Assembly: GCA_943328785.2 (NCBI GenBank)
Contig: CALQBJ020000010.1
Coordinates: 1-34,028 of the forward strand
Length of the DNA: 34,028 nucleotides
Direction: 5' to 3'
Origin: Bifidobacterium breve
Lineage (GTDB): Bacteria; Acidobacteriota; Vicinamibacteria; Vicinamibacterales; CAVVIG01
In this document: in pieces, positions 18,067 to 34,028 of the stretch
Layout: each line of letters starts with the position of its first letter
How positions within the stretch are numbered: the stretch's first letter is position 1
The notes under the pieces: model-generated
Seen by the model: the letters and a program-made list of their open reading frames with translations, nothing else
Databases searched by the model: none
What the model was told of the DNA's origin: nothing
Position numbers and translations under genes: made by a program

Positions 18067-18822
18067 TCAGTTGCCGCGGTTCGCGATCCTGGACATCAGC
18101 TTCTCGACCCGCACCTGGGCGATCTTGAGGTGCTCGTCGAGTTCCGCGTAGACGAACTTGTGCCCCGCGTTGATGGCGCGGGTCATTGGCACGCTGGCCT
18201 GTTCGTATTCGTCCAGGAGCGAGGCGCGGCGCGTCTTGTCGTCCACCTTCTTGATCATGGCGTTAGCGAGCTTGAGCTGTTCGCGCACCGCGTTCAGGCT
18301 TTCATACATCGCCCTGGCGTTCCGGGCACGCTCGGCGCGCGGTGCCACTTCCTTGGCGCCGTGGCAGTGCGAGCACTGCTTCTCGAGCGCGGCTGGCGAC
18401 AGCAGGTTGCCGGCAACGGCGTCGTGACAGGTCGAGCAGGTCGGGCCATGCGAGTCGCCGGTCTTCAGCAACTCGAAGTGACGGGTGTCCTGGAAGGCCA
18501 CGAAGGGGCCGACATGGCAGCCACCACAGGTGGCCGGCAGGTTAGCGCGGTTGACGGGACTCTTGGCGTTGCCCGAGTTCAGGATGCCGCGGTGCGCGAG
18601 CGCCGCTTCGAACACGGTGCTGTTACCACCGTGGCACTTCTCACAACCAACGTTGTTGCGCGCGTGCGGTGAGCGATCCCAGTCGAAGAGATGATCCGGG
18701 GCTGGGACGTTGTTCTGAGCGAAGTGACAGTCGGCACAGCGGCTAGTCTGCTGTGCGCTGACAGGAGTTGCGAAGAAGAACAGACCGACGAGACAGGCAG
18801 TCGCGACACCGAGGCGGTTCAT
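18067..18822 (-). CDS. Periplasmic pentaheme cytochrome c
   Basis: The 251-residue protein has a signal peptide (MNRLGVATACLVGLFFFATP, cleaved after VSA). It has five CXXCH heme c sites: C29-H33 (CADCH), C60-H64 (CEKCH), C99-H103 (CGGCH), C129-H133 (CSTCH) and C150-H154 (CSHCH). Scattered His residues (H53, H77, H115, H125) could be distal ligands. The last 80 residues are heme-free, Arg/Lys-rich and probably helical. It fits the doubled-CXXCH/cytochrome c3-like class that carries electrons in the periplasm; a partner enzyme is not in the window. The start at 18822 has a G-rich Shine-Dalgarno. A sigma-54-type promoter sits 26-41 bp upstream, and the tonB gene lies 109 bp upstream on the same strand. 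Confidence 0.92.
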   Translation of the reverse strand: MNRLGVATACLVGLFFFATPVSAQQTSRCADCHFAQNNVPAPDHLFDWDRSPHARNNVGCEKCHGGNSTVFEAALAHRGILNSGNAKSPVNRANLPATCGGCHVGPFVAFQDTRHFELLKTGDSHGPTCSTCHDAVAGNLLSPAALEKQCSHCHGAKEVAPRAERARNARAMYESLNAVREQLKLANAMIKKVDDKTRRASLLDEYEQASVPMTRAINAGHKFVYAELDEHLKIAQVRVEKLMSRIANRGN

Positions 18823-18847
18823 ATGCCACCCCCCTTGCCCGAGGTAC

Positions 18848-18863
18848 CGCAAGCGGCATACCG
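18848..18863 (-). promoter_or_regulatory. Sigma-54 (-24/-12) promoter-like site for the cytochrome gene
   Basis: The minus strand reads CGGTATGCCGCTTGCG, with GG and GC at the canonical 10-bp separation and an intact TTGC. The expected start near 18838 gives a leader of about 16 nt that still holds the G-rich Shine-Dalgarno. It closely resembles the site before tonB (CGGCATGCCACTTGCC). Confidence 0.6.
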
Positions 18864-21362: not shown

Positions 21363-21587
21363 CTACACGAGACGCAGCGTCTCGAACTCCGGGATCTCCT
21401 CGCGAATCGCCGACTCGACGCCCACATGCAGCGTCATGTGCGCACTCGGGCACCCGGCACACATACCGGTCAGACGCACGTCAGCGGAGTTGCCGTTGAC
21501 CGTCATCAGCTCGATATCCCCGCCGTCCGCCTGCAGGAACGGGCGAACTCGGTCGAGCACCCCCTGCACGCGTTCTCTGGAAACCAT
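21363..21587 (-). CDS. NifU-like Fe-S cluster protein (Nfu domain only)
   Basis: The 74-residue protein is a single NifU C-terminal (Nfu) domain: RPFLQADGGDIELM, then VRLTGMCAGCPSAHMTL with the cluster-binding C-x2-C, and a C-terminal IREEIPEF. Nfu proteins carry a [4Fe-4S] cluster between two subunits and deliver it to apo-proteins. It is first in an operon with the receiver-less sigma-54 activator and a receiver, and has its own sigma-54-like promoter at 21650-21665. A GGGAG Shine-Dalgarno precedes the ATG at 21587. The context suggests a role in repair or sensing of Fe-S clusters linked to this regulator rather than general biogenesis; that part is inference. Confidence 0.9.
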   Translation of the reverse strand: MVSRERVQGVLDRVRPFLQADGGDIELMTVNGNSADVRLTGMCAGCPSAHMTLHVGVESAIREEIPEFETLRLV

Positions 21588-28519: not shown

Positions 28520-31500
28520 CCGCATCATCGAGTTCTCGGCGCGCAACCGCTTCTTCGTGATCATGGCGGTGGCGCTAGCCACGGCGGTCGGCATCTGGTC
28601 GATGCGCACGATCCCGCTCGACGCGATCCCGGACCTCAGCGACACGCAGGTCATCGTCTACTCGAAGTGGGACCGCAGCCCCGACCTGGTCGAGGACCAG
28701 GTGACCTACCCCATCGTCACGGCCATGCTCGGCGCACCGAAGGTGAAGGCGGTCCGCGGCTTCTCCGACTTCGGCTACTCGTACGTGTACATCGTGTTCG
28801 AGGAGGGGACCGACATCTACTGGGCACGCTCACGCACGAGTGAGTACCTGTCGAGTGTGCTGCCGCGCCTGCCACAGGACGTGCGCACGGAACTCGGCCC
28901 CGACGCCACCGGCGTCGGCTGGGTGTTCCAGTACGCGCTCGTCGACACCACCGGCACGCAGAGCCTGGCCGACCTCCGCACCTATCAGGACTGGTACCTG
29001 CGCTACTACCTGAAGTCGGTGCCTGGCGTGGCGGAGGTCGCACCACTCGGTGGCTTCGTCCGCCAGTACCAGGTACAGGTCGACCCGAACCGTCTGCGCG
29101 CCTTCAACATCCCGATCGGCGCCGTCTCCGCCGCGATTCGCGCCGGCAACAACGATGCGGGCGGACGACTCGTGGAAATGACCGGCGCCGAGTACATGGT
29201 GCGCGGACGGGGCTACGCGAAGTCGGAGGCCGACATCGGCAACATCGTGCTCGCGCGCAACGACAGCGGCGTGCCGGTCCGGGTGCGAGATGTCGGCTCC
29301 GTCACCCTCGGCCCCGACCTGCGGCGCGGCGTCGCCGACCTCGACGGCACCGGCGACACGGTGTCGGGCATCGTCGTGATGCGACAGGGCGAGAACGCGC
29401 TGAAGGTGATTGCGCGCGTGAAGGCGAAGCTGAAGGACCTGGAGCCGTCACTGCCGGCCGGCACGAAGGTGATCACCACCTACGACCGCTCGGACCTCAT
29501 CCTTCGCTCGATCGACAACCTGCAGCACACGCTGCTCGAGGAACTGCTGATCGTCTCGCTGGTCATCCTCGTCTTCCTCTGGCACATCCCGAGCGCCCTC
29601 ATCCCGATCATCACCATCCCCGTGGCCGTGGCCATCGCGTTCATCCCGATGCGAATGATGGGGCTCAGCTCGAACATCATGTCGCTTGGCGGCATCGCCA
29701 TCGCTGTCGGCGCGATGGTGGACGCGGCGATCGTCGTCGTCGAGCAGACCCACAAGAAGCTCGAGGAGTGGGAGCGTAACGGCCGCGTCGAGGACTACAC
29801 CCGCGTCATCATCAACGCGGTGAAGGAGGTGGGTGGTCCGAGCTTCTTCGCCCTGCTGGTCATCGCGGTATCGTTCCTCCCCGTGCTGACGCTCGAGGCA
29901 CAGGAAGGCCGGCTGTTCCGCCCACTGGCCTACACCAAGAACTTCGCGATGATCGTCGCCGCTGTCCTCGCCATCACGCTCGATCCGGCGATGCGGTTGC
30001 TGTTCACGCACGCTGGCGAGGCCACCCGTGTCGTCACGACCGGCGTCCGTGGGTGGTTCAGCCGGGCGGTGAACGCCGTCTTCGTCGGCACCATCCACTC
30101 TGAGGACAGGCACCCGATCAGCCGAGTGCTGATTCGCGTCTACGAGCCGGTCTGTGCCTGGACGCTGCGCAGCAAGTGGCTCGTGCTCGCTGGCGCCACC
30201 GCACTCGTGTTCGCCACCGTGCCGGTCTACCTGCAACTCGGCTCCGAGTTCATGCCGCCGCTCGACGAGGGCACGCTGCTCTACATGCCGTCCACGCTGC
30301 CTGGGCTGTCGGTCACCGAGGCACAGCGCCTGCTGCAGGTGCAGGACCGCATCCTCACGCGCTTCCCGGAAGTGGCCCGGGTCTTCGGCAAGGCCGGACG
30401 CGCCGAGACCTCCACCGACTCGGCGCCGTTCTCGATGATGGAGACCATCGTCAGCCTCAGGCCACGCGACGAATGGCGTCACGTCGACACGTGGTATTCG
30501 GAGTGGGCGCCGGCCTGGCTGACGCCGGCACTGCGGCACATCACCAGCGACCGGACCTCCACCGAGCAACTGATCGCGGAGATGAACGACGCGCTGCAGT
30601 TGCCAGGCGTTACCAACGCCTGGACAATGCCGATCAAGGCGCGCACCGACATGCTGACGACCGGCATCCGCACTCCGGTCGGCATCAAGATCTACGGCAG
30701 CAACATCAAGGAGATCGAGCGGATCGGCACGGCCATCGAGCGCGCGCTGCCAGGGGTGAGCGGCACCAGGTCGGCCTTCGCGGAACGGACGTCTGGCGGC
30801 TTCTTTCTCGACGTCGACTGGAAGCGCGACGAGTTGGCGCGCTACGGGCTGTCGATCAACGATGCGCAGATGGTGGTGATGTCGGCGATCGGCGGCGACA
30901 CCGTCACGACGACCGTCGAAGGGCGCGAGCGTTACCCGGTCAGCGTGCGCTACTACCGCGACTACCGCAGCGACATGGATCGCCTGCGCCGCGTGGTGGT
31001 GCCGGCCATGGATGGACGGATGCAGGTGCCGATCGGCCAACTCGCCGACCTGCGCATCGTCAATGGTCCAGCCATGCTGCGCAACGAGAACGGCATGCTG
31101 AACGGCTACGTCTACGTCGACGTCGCCGGCCGCGACATCGGCGGCTACGTGGCCGAGGCGAAGCGGGTGGTGTCGCAGCAGGTCACGTTGCCTGCCGGCT
31201 ACACGCTGGAGTGGAGCGGCCAGTACGAAGCCATGCAGCGCGTGCGCGAGCGGCTCTTCCTCGTCGTGCCGATCACCCTGCTGCTGGTGGTGCTGCTGCT
31301 CTACGCGAACACGCGGTCGGTCTGGAAGACCGCCATCATCGTGATGGCCGTGCCGTTCTCGGCCGTCGGCGCCATCTGGCTGCTCTATGCGCTCGGCTAC
31401 AACATGAGCATCGGCGTCTGGGTCGGACTCATCGCCCTGCTCGGCGTCGATGCGGAGACCGGCGTCTTCATGCTGCTGTATCTCGACCTGGCCTACGACG

Positions 31501-31787
31501 AGGCGAAGCGCGGCGGCAGGCTTCGCTCGCTGGCCGACCTGCGGGCCGCCGTGCTGCACGGCGCGGTGCGGCGCATCCGGCCGAAGTTCATGACCGTTGC
31601 CACGATGTTCATGGGCCTCGTCCCGATCATGTGGTCCACTGGCGCCGGCGCCGACGTCATGAAACGTGTCGCGGCGCCGATGGTCGGCGGTATCTTTACG
31701 TCATTCATCCTCGAACTGATGGTCTATCCGGTCGTCTATGAAATCTGGAAGTGGCATTTCGGATTGAAACAGGAGCTGCAGTCATGA
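28512..31787 (+). CDS. cusA: Heavy-metal RND efflux pump, CusA-like
   Basis: The 1091-residue inner-membrane proton/metal antiporter has the RND plan of 12 helices and two large periplasmic loops. The proton-relay helix reads GGIAIAVGAMVDAAIVVVE, with the essential Asp. Positions matching the CusA methionine triad are conserved: M592 (LLYMPSTLPG, E. coli M573), M642 (APFSMMET, M623) and M714 (RTDMLTTGIR, M672). This supports Cu(I)/Ag(I) rather than Zn/Co/Ni specificity. About 22 extra residues lie between the second and third methionines compared with E. coli CusA, as in many environmental homologues. The gene overlaps cusB-like by eight and the TPR gene by four bases, so tolC, cusB, cusA and TPR genes form one operon. 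Confidence 0.93.
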   Translation: MIDRIIEFSARNRFFVIMAVALATAVGIWSMRTIPLDAIPDLSDTQVIVYSKWDRSPDLVEDQVTYPIVTAMLGAPKVKAVRGFSDFGYSYVYIVFEEGTDIYWARSRTSEYLSSVLPRLPQDVRTELGPDATGVGWVFQYALVDTTGTQSLADLRTYQDWYLRYYLKSVPGVAEVAPLGGFVRQYQVQVDPNRLRAFNIPIGAVSAAIRAGNNDAGGRLVEMTGAEYMVRGRGYAKSEADIGNIVLARNDSGVPVRVRDVGSVTLGPDLRRGVADLDGTGDTVSGIVVMRQGENALKVIARVKAKLKDLEPSLPAGTKVITTYDRSDLILRSIDNLQHTLLEELLIVSLVILVFLWHIPSALIPIITIPVAVAIAFIPMRMMGLSSNIMSLGGIAIAVGAMVDAAIVVVEQTHKKLEEWERNGRVEDYTRVIINAVKEVGGPSFFALLVIAVSFLPVLTLEAQEGRLFRPLAYTKNFAMIVAAVLAITLDPAMRLLFTHAGEATRVVTTGVRGWFSRAVNAVFVGTIHSEDRHPISRVLIRVYEPVCAWTLRSKWLVLAGATALVFATVPVYLQLGSEFMPPLDEGTLLYMPSTLPGLSVTEAQRLLQVQDRILTRFPEVARVFGKAGRAETSTDSAPFSMMETIVSLRPRDEWRHVDTWYSEWAPAWLTPALRHITSDRTSTEQLIAEMNDALQLPGVTNAWTMPIKARTDMLTTGIRTPVGIKIYGSNIKEIERIGTAIERALPGVSGTRSAFAERTSGGFFLDVDWKRDELARYGLSINDAQMVVMSAIGGDTVTTTVEGRERYPVSVRYYRDYRSDMDRLRRVVVPAMDGRMQVPIGQLADLRIVNGPAMLRNENGMLNGYVYVDVAGRDIGGYVAEAKRVVSQQVTLPAGYTLEWSGQYEAMQRVRERLFLVVPITLLLVVLLLYANTRSVWKTAIIVMAVPFSAVGAIWLLYALGYNMSIGVWVGLIALLGVDAETGVFMLLYLDLAYDEAKRGGRLRSLADLRAAVLHGAVRRIRPKFMTVATMFMGLVPIMWSTGAGADVMKRVAAPMVGGIFTSFILELMVYPVVYEIWKWHFGLKQELQS

Positions 31788-32449
31788 GCCACAGGAAGCA
31801 CGCCACACACACCCCTATCGCCGACGACCGCGACGACGATGAGCCGGCACGACCGTCCCAGTACACGTGGATTGTCTATGCGGTTGCCATGCTGCTCGTT
31901 GGCGGACTCGCCGGCTACGTGTTGTCGATCGTCGGCACCAGCGGCAGCGCGCCGCCGGCAGCCACCGCCCCCACGGCTGCGTCCGCTCCCGCGGCTGGCG
32001 CGCCGGCCGCCGGCATGGTGGACGATGTGGCGCTGAAGGCGTATCGCGACATCCTCGCGCGCGACCCGAAGAACCTCCAGGCCGCGGTCAGCGCCGGCAA
32101 CATGCTCTACGACGCCAGGCGCTACGAGGAGGCGATCCCCTTCTACCAGCAGGCCATGGCCGCGAACGGCCGCGACGTGAATGTGAGTACCGACCTCGGG
32201 ACCGCACTGTGGTACACCGGCCGTGCCGATGCCGCGCTGGCGCAGTACGCCGTGTCGCTCACGATCGAGCCCGGGCATGCGCAGACGCTCTTCAACGTGG
32301 GCATCGTCCGTTCGGACGGGAAGAAGGACTTCGCGGGCGCCGCGCAGGCGTGGGAGACGCTGCTGCAGACCAATCCGGCGTATCCGAACGCCGCGAACGT
32401 GCGGACGCTCATCGCGGAAGCGAAGGGCAAGGTGGGCAAGGGCAACTGA
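31784..32449 (+). CDS. Membrane-anchored TPR protein of the efflux operon
   Basis: The 221-residue protein starts at 31784, overlapping the cusA-like stop (ATGA). It has a charged His-containing N-terminus, one membrane helix (about residues 28-50), a Pro/Ala-rich linker (APPAATAPTAASAPAAGAPA) and then three to four tetratricopeptide repeats to the end (for example LAAYRDIL-like ALKAYRDILARDPKNLQAAVSAGNMLYDARRYEEAIPFYQQAM; TDLGTALWYTGRADAALAQYAVSL; AAQAWETLLQTNPAYPNA). It resembles the CcmH/CycH-type TPR proteins that dock onto membrane complexes. Its place at the end of the efflux operon suggests a scaffold for pump assembly or metal delivery, but no specific function can be assigned. Confidence 0.82.
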   Translation: MSHRKHATHTPIADDRDDDEPARPSQYTWIVYAVAMLLVGGLAGYVLSIVGTSGSAPPAATAPTAASAPAAGAPAAGMVDDVALKAYRDILARDPKNLQAAVSAGNMLYDARRYEEAIPFYQQAMAANGRDVNVSTDLGTALWYTGRADAALAQYAVSLTIEPGHAQTLFNVGIVRSDGKKDFAGAAQAWETLLQTNPAYPNAANVRTLIAEAKGKVGKGN

Positions 32450-32457
32450 CGGCGAAG

Positions 32458-32724
32458 TCAGAGGAGCAGCGTCTGCCCCTCTGGCAACTGCAGCGCGAAC
32501 AACTGGACGATGGCGTGGATGGCCGTCGGATGCGGCGGCGCGGCGGCCAGCATCTGCGACGACTCCCGGGTGAGCGCACCGATCACGTCAGCGATAATCG
32601 TCTCAGCCGACTCCCGTTCGGTGTCAGACAGGCCGGTCAACTTGCGGCGTAGCCGCTCGAGTTCCTCGCGGCACACCGCTTCGAAGTGCTCCTGCAGCAC
32701 GTCTCCGACCATCCCTCCGCTCAT
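32458..32724 (-). CDS. Small protein resembling a glutamyl-tRNA reductase dimerization segment
   Basis: The 88-residue helical protein starts at 32724, behind GGAG. The central part (FEAVCREELERLRRKLTGLSDTERESAETIIADVIGAL, then HPTAIHAI) has the spacing and residues of the C-terminal dimerization helices of HemA: EEL.R....L..L...., then a helix ending before a ..HP.... turn. There is no catalytic or NADP domain, so it is not a reductase. It is second in a minus-strand pair with the 81-residue Cys/His protein (63 bp gap) under a sigma-54-like promoter. It ends 8 bp from the convergent TPR gene. It may be an independent small helical protein that only resembles HemA. Function unknown. Confidence 0.65.
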   Translation of the reverse strand: MSGGMVGDVLQEHFEAVCREELERLRRKLTGLSDTERESAETIIADVIGALTRESSQMLAAAPPHPTAIHAIVQLFALQLPEGQTLLL

Positions 32725-32787
32725 GATTCCACTCCTGCCGGAAGTCCGGCAGCTTGATCCAGCCGCGTGTGCGCGCAGAACCCGCAG

Positions 32788-33033
32788 TCAGACGTCCCGC
32801 CGCTTGAACAGGCGGAACTCGATTCCTGGCTCACCGACACCCGTCTCGGTGAGATGACAGAGGTCGCCGCAGTCGTGCGAGAAGTGATAGCTGCCCTGAC
32901 GTTCGTCGTGCAGCACCTCTTCCCACTCATCCGACAGCCCCATGATGGCGTTGGCAGCCGCAGCGACCTGGTCGCGAGTCGCACCAGGAAAGCGCCGGCT
33001 CAGAATGGCTTCGACTTTCTGCCGGTCAAGCAT
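32788..33033 (-). CDS. Small uncharacterised protein with clustered His/Cys metal-ligand motif
   Basis: The 81-residue protein starts at 33033, behind GGAGTCTC. The N-terminal half is helical (LDRQKVEAILSRRFPGATRDQVAAAANAIMGL). The C-terminal half contains H50, H53, C55, C59 and H60 in the order H-x2-H-x-C-x3-C-H, then ends in EFRLFKRRDV. The cluster looks like a binding site for iron, zinc, heme or an Fe-S cluster. I do not recognise the family. It is first in a two-gene operon with a sigma-54-type promoter about 30-45 bp upstream. It lies beside sodC and a RIC-type di-iron protein, suggesting a part in oxidative or nitrosative stress or metal handling; this is inference. Confidence 0.72.
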   Translation of the reverse strand: MLDRQKVEAILSRRFPGATRDQVAAAANAIMGLSDEWEEVLHDERQGSYHFSHDCGDLCHLTETGVGEPGIEFRLFKRRDV

Positions 33034-33061
33034 GATGAGACTCCATCTGCCGCCACGGAGA

Positions 33062-33077
33062 GGCAAACCCGATGCCC
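33062..33077 (-). promoter_or_regulatory. Sigma-54 (-24/-12) promoter-like site for the small-protein pair
   Basis: The minus strand reads GGGCATCGGGTTTGCC: GGCA and TTGC at exact canonical spacing. The predicted start near 33051 gives an 18-nt leader with a good Shine-Dalgarno before the ATG at 33033. Confidence 0.6.
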
Positions 33078-33099
33078 GGACTTCCGCCGGATTCCCGTC

Positions 33100-33115
33100 G
33101 GGCTGAGGCTTTGCG
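33100..33115 (+). promoter_or_regulatory. Weaker sigma-54-like site for sodC
   Basis: GGGCTGAGGCTTTGCG has GG and GC at the right spacing and an intact TTGC but only GGC in the -24 box. The predicted start near 33127 lies 36 nt before the sodC ATG. It is back-to-back with the site at 33062-33077. Confidence 0.35.
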
Positions 33116-33162
33116 CTATGCTCTGATATCTGTCTGGTATGCAGGAAATCCGGGAGGATTCA

Positions 33163-33687
33163 ATGAAGCAGTTGTTTCGTGGAGTGATGGTCGGCGTCGG
33201 TCTCGGCGCCGTGATGCTGGCAGTCAACCTCGCCGCGCAGGGTCCGGTGAAGGTGGAACTGAAGGACGGCACGGGGCAGTCGGTTGGCACGGCCAGCCTG
33301 AGCGAATCGATGGGCATGGTCCACATCCAGCTCGATCTGAAGGGGCTCAAGCCCGGCGAACACGCGCTGCACGTGCACGGCACGGCGAAGTGCGAAGGTC
33401 CCGCCTTCACGACCGCCGGCGGCCACTTCAATCCGGCTGCCAAGAAGCACGGGCTGCAGAACCCGGAAGGTCCGCACGCGGGCGACATGGAGAACTTCAC
33501 CGTGGCCGCTGACGGCACGGCGAAGGGCATGCTCATGCCGAAGGGCATCTCGCTCGGCAGCGGCGCCAACTCGGTGTTCACCGGCGGCGGCACGGCCCTC
33601 GTGATCCACGCCGGTCCGGACGACATGAAGACCGACCCGGCCGGTGCAGCCGGCGACCGCATCGCCTGCGGCGTCATCACCAAGTAG
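33163..33687 (+). CDS. sodC: Periplasmic Cu/Zn superoxide dismutase
   Basis: SodC converts superoxide to oxygen and hydrogen peroxide in the periplasm. The 174-residue protein has a signal peptide (MKQLFRGVMVGVGLGAVMLA, cleaved after LAA). All metal ligands are present: Cu ligands H70, H72, bridging H88 and H149, and Zn ligands H96, H105 and D108. The disulfide pair C77-C169 and the active-site R166 (GDRIACGVI) are also present. The start at 33163 follows GGGAGGA; an in-frame ATG at 33139 lacks this. It is divergent from the small-protein operon and convergent with the RIC-type gene. Being next to a copper efflux operon fits a copper or oxidative stress setting. Confidence 0.96.
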   Translation: MKQLFRGVMVGVGLGAVMLAVNLAAQGPVKVELKDGTGQSVGTASLSESMGMVHIQLDLKGLKPGEHALHVHGTAKCEGPAFTTAGGHFNPAAKKHGLQNPEGPHAGDMENFTVAADGTAKGMLMPKGISLGSGANSVFTGGGTALVIHAGPDDMKTDPAGAAGDRIACGVITK

Positions 33688-33699
33688 CTCTCCGACGCT

Positions 33700-33727
33700 G
33701 GTCATCTGGCTTTCGAGCCAGATGACC
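33700..33727. terminator. Perfect 12-bp stem with TTCG loop between convergent genes
   Basis: GGTCATCTGGCT-TTCG-AGCCAGATGACC is a perfect inverted repeat, 12 bp after the sodC stop and 18 bp from the stop of the convergent RIC-type gene. No T-tract follows on either strand, so it is either a weak bidirectional terminator or an mRNA 3' end stabiliser. Confidence 0.6.
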
Positions 33728-33745
33728 GCTCCGCCCCACCCACCT

Positions 33746-34028
33746 TCAGCTCGCCGCCTGCCGTTGAATCGGCGGGGTTCCCATCACCGCCGCCTCCAGC
33801 GCCACCGCTTTCGGAAACAGGATGTTGTTTTCCAGGTGGATGTGTATGCGCAGGTCGCGGTCGAACGCGGCCAGTTCCTCGAAACAGACGCGATAGGTGG
33901 CGCAGCCGTCCTCGGGAACCGTGAAGTCACGGGCCAGGGCACGCACGAGGTCGAGTTCGTTACCCGCGCTCTGGTGCTCGGCCTCCATCATCCGGATCGG
34001 GTTCATCACCGTCCCGAACATGTTGGGC
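33746..34028 (-). CDS. RIC/ScdA (YtfE)-type Fe-S cluster repair di-iron protein, C-terminal part
   Basis: The frame enters from the right edge, so the N-terminal half is missing. The visible 94 residues form the end of a hemerythrin-like domain: MMEAEHQSAGNELDLVRALARDF, then TYRVCFEELAAFDRDLRIHIHLENNILFPKAVALE. The EAEH, HIHLENNILFP and spacing are those of the RIC family, whose di-iron site repairs nitrosylated or oxidised Fe-S clusters. The family normally also has an N-terminal ScdA_N (DUF542) segment, which cannot be seen here. It is convergent with sodC. Together with the NifU-like gene it gives the region two Fe-S maintenance functions. Confidence 0.88.
   Translation of the reverse strand, partial: PNMFGTVMNPIRMMEAEHQSAGNELDLVRALARDFTVPEDGCATYRVCFEELAAFDRDLRIHIHLENNILFPKAVALEAAVMGTPPIQRQAAS

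Follow-up and report, generated by a model that had tools for sequence, protein, structure and literature searches.

A small orphan protein and a stand-alone glutamyl-tRNA reductase dimerisation domain as a candidate accessory pair of a sigma-54-controlled respiratory regulon in Vicinamibacterales

The gene pair and its predicted promoter

The window, which is the whole 34,028-nucleotide stretch of DNA analysed here, carries near its end two short genes, A and B, read from the minus strand and separated by 63 bp (Table 1). A ribosome-binding sequence lies 7 nt from each ATG (GGAG for gene A, AGGAG for gene B), so that the sites described as good in the first-pass annotation hold up, and a codon model trained on the long genes of the window rates both frames as coding. 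Homologues of gene A were found in 29 of 100 related genomes (matches at E 1e-3) and stand-alone copies of gene B in 14. The dN/dS ratios are 0.06-0.14 for gene A (six pairs) and, for gene B, 0.11-0.19 in three pairs, with a further pair at 0.38. Conserved homologues together with low dN/dS exclude chance frames, and A and B are thus genes that, to judge from these comparisons, are under purifying selection.

Table 1. Features at the gene pair, numbered from the first letter of the window.
Feature	Position	Strand	Remarks
Gene A	33033..32788	minus	81 aa; ATG start; stop counted in the coordinates
Gene B	32724..32458	minus	88 aa; ATG start
Predicted sigma-54-type -24/-12 site of gene A	33077..33062	minus	GGGCATCGGGTTTGCC; 44 nt upstream of gene A
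TPR protein, membrane-anchored	31784..32449	plus	Convergent with gene B; TPR by Pfam for a relative
SodC (Cu/Zn superoxide dismutase)	33163..33687	plus	Divergent; PF00080, 1.8e-38
RIC gene	34027..33746		Hemerythrin and RIC matches; cut by the contig end

Genes were clustered across 36 gene-called stretches, namely the window and L061-L095. Gene A was called in 26 of these; the other ten were left out because gene A was not called or was interrupted, or because the stretch held a second copy or only gene B. On one side of the pair in the window lie CusA-type RND genes and on the other SodC and RIC, and these neighbours, like the TPR protein, are as first described, with the RIC gene truncated. 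The copper-efflux and SodC neighbours are local, SodC being a neighbour within this genus only: SodC stands beside gene A at two of the 26 loci (the window and the same-genus sister L061), and CusA-type genes occur near it at two (the window and L062). Gene A of L061 lies beside sodC in the absence of gene B, which means that gene B is not obligatory for gene A; the sister genome G001 has lost B. In the window, the pair has no multiheme operon next to it. The multi-CXXCH cytochrome gene nearest to it (18852..18070, minus strand; Cytochrome_C7, 7.9e-7) lies at a distance of about 14 kb.

Up to 250 nt before each called gene were scanned for the pattern NGGCAY-N5-TTGC, the start codons being our own calls. 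In the site before gene A, the GG and GC elements are correctly spaced and stand in a consensus context, and we take this site to be a sigma-54 -24/-12 promoter. The same pattern precedes gene A at 17 of 26 loci, as compared with 0.12 on average and never more than 2 across 200 dinucleotide shuffles. Before other genes of the same loci it was found in 47 of 444 cases, two of these being additional A copies (L125 and L128) that the clustering did not include; the A copies L126 and L132 have sigma-54-like sites too. Strong sites were not found before five members (L064, L078, L080, L087 and L088), and in two of these, L078 and L080, the site lies before the gene that precedes A instead. Similarly, no strong site was found for the distant A relatives L138-L140 and L159-L161, where L138 and L140 have weak ones. 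The genome of the window encodes rpoN (PF04552, 223 bits), and a sigma-54 AAA+ activator is present in the window itself (cluster C2, assigned by the scan of one representative). No sigma-70 or terminator consensus was found within 32300-33300, nor any Rfam match within 30000-34028. The sigma-54-like promoter of the first-pass annotation is upheld on consensus fit and conservation, and the assignment of the predicted promoter of gene A to the -24/-12 sigma-54 type is strongly supported.

Other carriers of the pattern are a NosL-like cluster (4/7), a NifU-like cluster (5/11) and cluster C20 (5/5). The latter comprises small proteins with no family match over cut-off (e.g. L070:611-901), all with sigma-54-like sites. 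In the window, a gene for a NifU-like protein (21569..21366, minus strand; PF01106, 3.4e-23) lies between two sigma-54 activator genes and has a sigma-54-like site 96 nt upstream.

Gene A and its proposed ligand motif

No hit above cut-off came from Pfam, NCBIfam or PDB sequence searches with gene A or with its family members one by one, and by this measure gene A represents an orphan family, matched by none of the curated families searched. HAO_bd appeared for a single member (E 0.048) and DUF1659 for 6 of the 25 members (best E 0.051); both are below cut-off and were set aside. The N-terminal helices weakly resemble the three-helix bundle dimerization domain NF046112 (9 of 25 members, best E 0.013), but gene A extends beyond this likeness with a CX3C and strand region, and the window protein remains below the cut-off of that family (14.5 vs 25 bits). 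Foldseek searches with the AlphaFold models of A and of B returned no match at E 0.001. Further, neither protein matched PF01814 (hemerythrin) or RIC at E 1.

A profile of the 25 members found gene A in 9 of 396 genomes sampled across the phylum and a wider profile in 12, while a species-genome scan gave 30 loci, whose titles all name Acidobacteria/Acidobacteriota, Terriglobia or Vicinamibacteria-type MAGs. Plasmid searches with a distant A relative and a B relative gave no match at E 0.1. The gene A copy of G070 (L016 / L113) is broken by a TAG codon and is either a pseudogene or an assembly error.

Gene A consists of an N-terminal helical hairpin, an optional CX3C (C55, C59) and a basic C-terminal strand. 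The residues invariant in the alignment of all 25 members (M1, D3, R4, K6, L11, R14, F15, P16, A24, N28, A29, I30 and G32) sit in the hairpin, and G70 and R74 near the C-terminus are nearly invariant. AlphaFold models the hairpin (4-31) confidently and the strand-helix-strand remainder unsurely (mean pLDDT 72). Neither A nor B has a CXXCH motif, a signal peptide or a membrane span; with no hydrophobic stretch of membrane length, gene A is probably a cytoplasmic accessory factor.

The first-pass annotation had proposed a five-ligand metal or heme site in gene A, made up of H50, H53, C55, C59 and H60 in the arrangement H-x2-H-x-C-x3-C-H. The full motif occurs in one of 25 members, the window protein itself, and the five-ligand site is therefore rejected. 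The histidines are conserved to very different extents, H50 being His in 14 of 25 members, H60 in two and H53 in the window protein only, and the set is not conserved as such. What recurs is the cysteine pair: C55 is Cys in 19 of 25 members, C59 in 17, and both together in 17. The motif segment is absent wholly or largely from several members of 64-75 aa. Among distant relatives from other families, L102, L103 and L140 keep a C-x-D-I-C-x-L-A core but not the histidines, and the more distant L159-L161 keep only the second Cys. As read from this alignment, the CX3C pair is a common but optional feature of gene A.

Gene B and the glutamyl-tRNA reductase dimerisation domain

Gene B had been likened to the dimerisation helices of glutamyl-tRNA reductase (GluTR, HemA), with which heme synthesis begins, and this likeness proved to be homology to PF00745 (GlutR_dimer), which the window protein matches over the curated cut-off (29.8 vs 22.9 bits; profile positions 29-99). 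PF00745 is the only domain over cut-off. Of the two profile comparisons suggested at the outset, that with HemA was positive for B, and that with hemerythrin was negative for both A and B. In contrast to GluTR, gene B is a separate 88-aa protein encoded in respiratory clusters, and both the catalytic domain (GlutR_N) and the NADPH-binding domain are absent. Profile positions 1-28, about the first quarter of the Pfam domain, are missing as well, and the start of the domain is missing from stand-alone copies throughout, which align from position 19-29 on. Compared by hhalign, a profile of ten B proteins matched the HemA encoded in the window's genome (residues 346-422) at a probability of 96.3 and E 1.5e-9. 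By its profile match, gene B is thus a new architecture of a known domain, the GluTR dimerisation domain; no description of a stand-alone version was found by title or abstract start in the open-licence PMC literature.

The 14 stand-alone copies among the 100 relatives comprise 13 over the PF00745 cut-off and that of G027, identified by protein and profile searches. In 297 phylum-wide genomes, only four stand-alone copies scored above 100 bits, all from the same order; the other 88 matching genomes scored at most 54 bits, nearly all in frames of about HemA length. A tree of 14 B domains together with 18 from HemA, which is built on 83 columns with several long branches so that the order inside B is unsure, has a branch supported at 100/100 that keeps B to one side. 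B is in this respect consistent with a single origin, as opposed to hemA having decayed several times. A full-length HemA match was found in 11 of the 14 B genomes, including that of the window (L141:2336-3673), and none was seen in G017, G037 and G047, which are 91% complete in the case of G017 and less than 90% in the other two.

The AlphaFold model of gene B has three helices (mean pLDDT 79). GluTR structures were absent from the matches of its fold search, the best VIA-align row being a helical protein (Z 8.5, rmsd 5.3, 71 aligned), a level common for helical models; this null result is no evidence against homology to the GluTR domain. Among PDB sequences, the B profile found nothing beyond one unrelated match (E 1.1).

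Respiratory context and proposed role of the pair

Around the 26 A loci, many of which are cut by contig ends so that absences are not informative, the genes found within 8 kb are a variant radical-SAM (rSAM) gene (15), a gene whose product has four or more CXXCH (12), a cytochrome b561-like gene (11), a histidine kinase (11), a NapC/NrfH-like gene (10), gene B (9), a sigma-54 activator (9), NifU-like (9), TPR (7, cluster C12), MtrB/PioB (7), PFOR (6) and NosL-like (5) genes, the cluster identities being taken from scans of representatives. The two genes that had been described as an operon do travel together, with conserved frames and B near A at the nine loci just given. In the family of the window (f1), the A-B pair lies beside TPR, kinase, sigma-54 activator, NifU-like and PFOR genes. 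Outside this family the usual order is rSAM, A, sometimes a mono-heme cytochrome c, multiheme c, cytochrome b, NapC-like, a second multiheme c and MtrB/PioB. In L077 and L086, A, a NosL-like gene, B and cytochromes are consecutive on one strand. In G058 (L143), B comes immediately after the rSAM gene, with a sigma-54 site of its own and without A, and the cytochromes come next. The rSAM protein, the most frequent neighbour of A, is represented by L070:6563-7852 and its relatives (NF045502, 187 bits; cut-off 125).

Co-occurrence across the 100 relatives gives a similar picture, with Fisher values that are indicative since the genomes are related. MtrB/PioB (PF11854) was found in 28 of the 29 genomes with A (A-plus) and in 27 of the 71 without it (A-minus; 2e-8), and the association is seen both inside f1 (3e-4) and outside it (6e-5). 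The rSAM protein, at E 1e-40, was found in 20 of 29 A-plus and 9 of 71 A-minus genomes (6e-8). All 14 B-plus genomes have MtrB/PioB, the match in the genome of the window being partial and on another contig. Gene B is absent from 18 of the 29 A-plus genomes, and three genomes have B without A.

Distant relatives of gene A occur in comparable settings. After the A relative of L140 come a cytochrome with an MtrC/MtrF domain, a decaheme protein, a beta-barrel and then a kinase and a response regulator, with a partial rSAM match at the end of the stretch. CcmF and CcmH follow the relative in L138. In L159 it comes directly after a Sec-dependent nosZ, with nosD one gene further on, and the stretch of L139 has cytochrome b and c genes that are not adjacent. 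These mtr-type, ccm and nos contexts suggest that gene A marks respiratory metalloprotein loci beyond the order to which the window belongs. In the genome of the window no clade II NosZ was found above cut-off, and N2O respiration is therefore not claimed for it; N2O reduction has been reported for a Vicinamibacteria strain (PMC13122619).

Based on these neighbourhoods, A and B very probably belong to a respiratory regulon. They neighbour and co-occur with the MtrB/PioB and multiheme cytochromes of MtrCAB- and PioAB-type outer-membrane electron conduits, but lacking CXXCH, signal peptide and membrane span they would be accessory factors and not parts of the conduit. The first-pass annotation had guessed at a link to heme supply from the adjacent genes. 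A general link to heme or respiratory metalloproteins is borne out by the conserved neighbourhoods and by co-occurrence, but its basis in the local neighbours is not: outside the genus the surroundings are multiheme respiratory genes. A more specific role, in which the pair would act with the CusA, SodC and RIC genes near it against copper, superoxide or NO stress, draws on the position of these genes on either side of the pair, and on SodC standing beside A in L061 too. It is highly improbable, however, with respiratory neighbours outside the genus and SodC and CusA-type genes at two of 26 loci each, and the proposed SodC/RIC or Fe-S/NO link is not supported.

The reading that we consider on balance probable is that A and B form a cytoplasmic accessory pair of a sigma-54-controlled, low-oxygen multiheme and MtrB/PioB respiratory regulon of Vicinamibacterales, supporting cytochrome production, with B tuning heme supply via HemA. 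The sigma-54 activator would switch the regulon on, whereupon A and B would be made and would support the production of cytochromes. As B retains the helices through which two GluTR subunits pair but no catalytic part, it would most likely dock on HemA or a HemA regulator, or compete as a decoy, and heme-precursor synthesis would thereby be matched to the heme demand of the cytochromes. B most likely tunes heme supply, with either HemA or B itself as its target; that it acts on HemA in particular is a tentative proposal. Gene A would be a small protein-protein adaptor or chaperone-like factor in which CX3C is an optional redox or metal feature and not the core, and a cytoplasmic adaptor is the favoured role. 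Against this reading stand the 18 of 29 A genomes that have no B and the three B genomes that have no A, the three of 14 B genomes in which HemA was not seen, the absence of GluTR structures from the fold search with the model of B, the lack of a multiheme operon beside the pair in the window together with the partial MtrB/PioB match on another contig of its genome, and the several A members and most distant relatives for which no strong sigma-54 site was found.

A possible precedent comes from plants, where FLU and GBP are regulators that set GluTR activity by binding GluTR, and where the TPR domain of FLU, a TPR protein, binds the GluTR dimerisation domain (PMC4726326). The parallel would be the regulation of GluTR by a protein bound to it; FLU, however, is a TPR protein, whereas B is a copy of the dimerisation domain itself. 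The TPR neighbour in the window was considered as an analogue of FLU and rejected, since its single N-terminal anchor makes it likely that the repeats are periplasmic and out of reach of B.

Gene A could alternatively be a metal- or heme-binding carrier (copper or heme) that supplies cuproenzymes or cytochromes through CX3C and a nearby histidine, with B an unrelated helper. The cysteine pair of 17 members and of three distant relatives fits this, as do the NosL-like genes near A (5/26 loci), the azurin-like gene just upstream of A in L087 and L088, the nosZ beside the distant relative L159 and the CusA-type genes in the window and L062. However, the members of 64-75 aa do without the segment, azurin-adjacent ones without the cysteine pair among them, the histidines are not conserved, and three distant members have one Cys only. 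Metal binding by gene A is unlikely in our estimate, and a carrier function quite unlikely. The frequency of the variant rSAM gene, mostly directly before A where it occurs within 8 kb, and its enrichment in A-plus genomes would also suit a gene A that is the substrate or partner of this enzyme, that is, a small modified protein or RiPP-like precursor, with B as carrier or partner protein. Yet 9 of 29 A genomes, including that of the window, have no recognisable rSAM, the examined stretches of the distant nos and ccm members gave no rSAM match, and A is conserved over its whole length including the C-terminus, unlike a variable core peptide; we regard this as very unlikely.

As for gene B, it may be a mere relic or a self-dimerising scaffold with no role in heme synthesis, given that the start of the domain and every catalytic part are missing from it, that one pair has a dN/dS of 0.38 and that G001 has lost it. 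The low dN/dS of the other three pairs (0.11-0.19), the position of B on one side of the 100/100 branch and its retention beside cytochrome genes even without A (L143) speak against this, and we consider it rather doubtful. Returning to the accessory pair of a respiratory regulon, a bolder version holds that the GluTR dimerisation domain became detached in Vicinamibacterales and turned into a dedicated regulator, itself part of the sigma-54 regulon, that docks on the HemA dimer or competes within it, heme synthesis being reset automatically whenever multiheme electron conduits are built, and that gene A represents a new family of respiratory assembly adaptors of Mtr-type, nos and ccm clusters. 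This version too strikes us as rather doubtful.

In our judgement, the way in which heme synthesis keeps pace with the large amounts of heme that multiheme cytochromes require is an open question, and no paper linking the two was found by title or abstract start. A stand-alone GluTR dimerisation domain inside a cytochrome regulon is a concrete, testable candidate for coupling heme synthesis to demand, and the pair may help to match heme supply to demand in soil Acidobacteriota. Family A appears to mark respiratory loci (Mtr-type conduits, clade II nos and ccm) in this abundant, poorly cultured soil phylum, and the predicted sigma-54 sites would trace the extent of a regulon that serves respiration in this phylum, extracellular or at low oxygen.

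The A relative between nosZ and nosD (L159:7382-7681), from a family outside the class of the window, may be an undescribed gene of the clade II nos operon. The genome of the window also contains a second, divergent full-length GluTR-like gene (L142:4581-5837, contig C127; GlutR_N 8.9e-36, GlutR_dimer 3.1e-7), surrounded by chemotaxis-looking genes and a globin-coupled receptor, which were named by eye.
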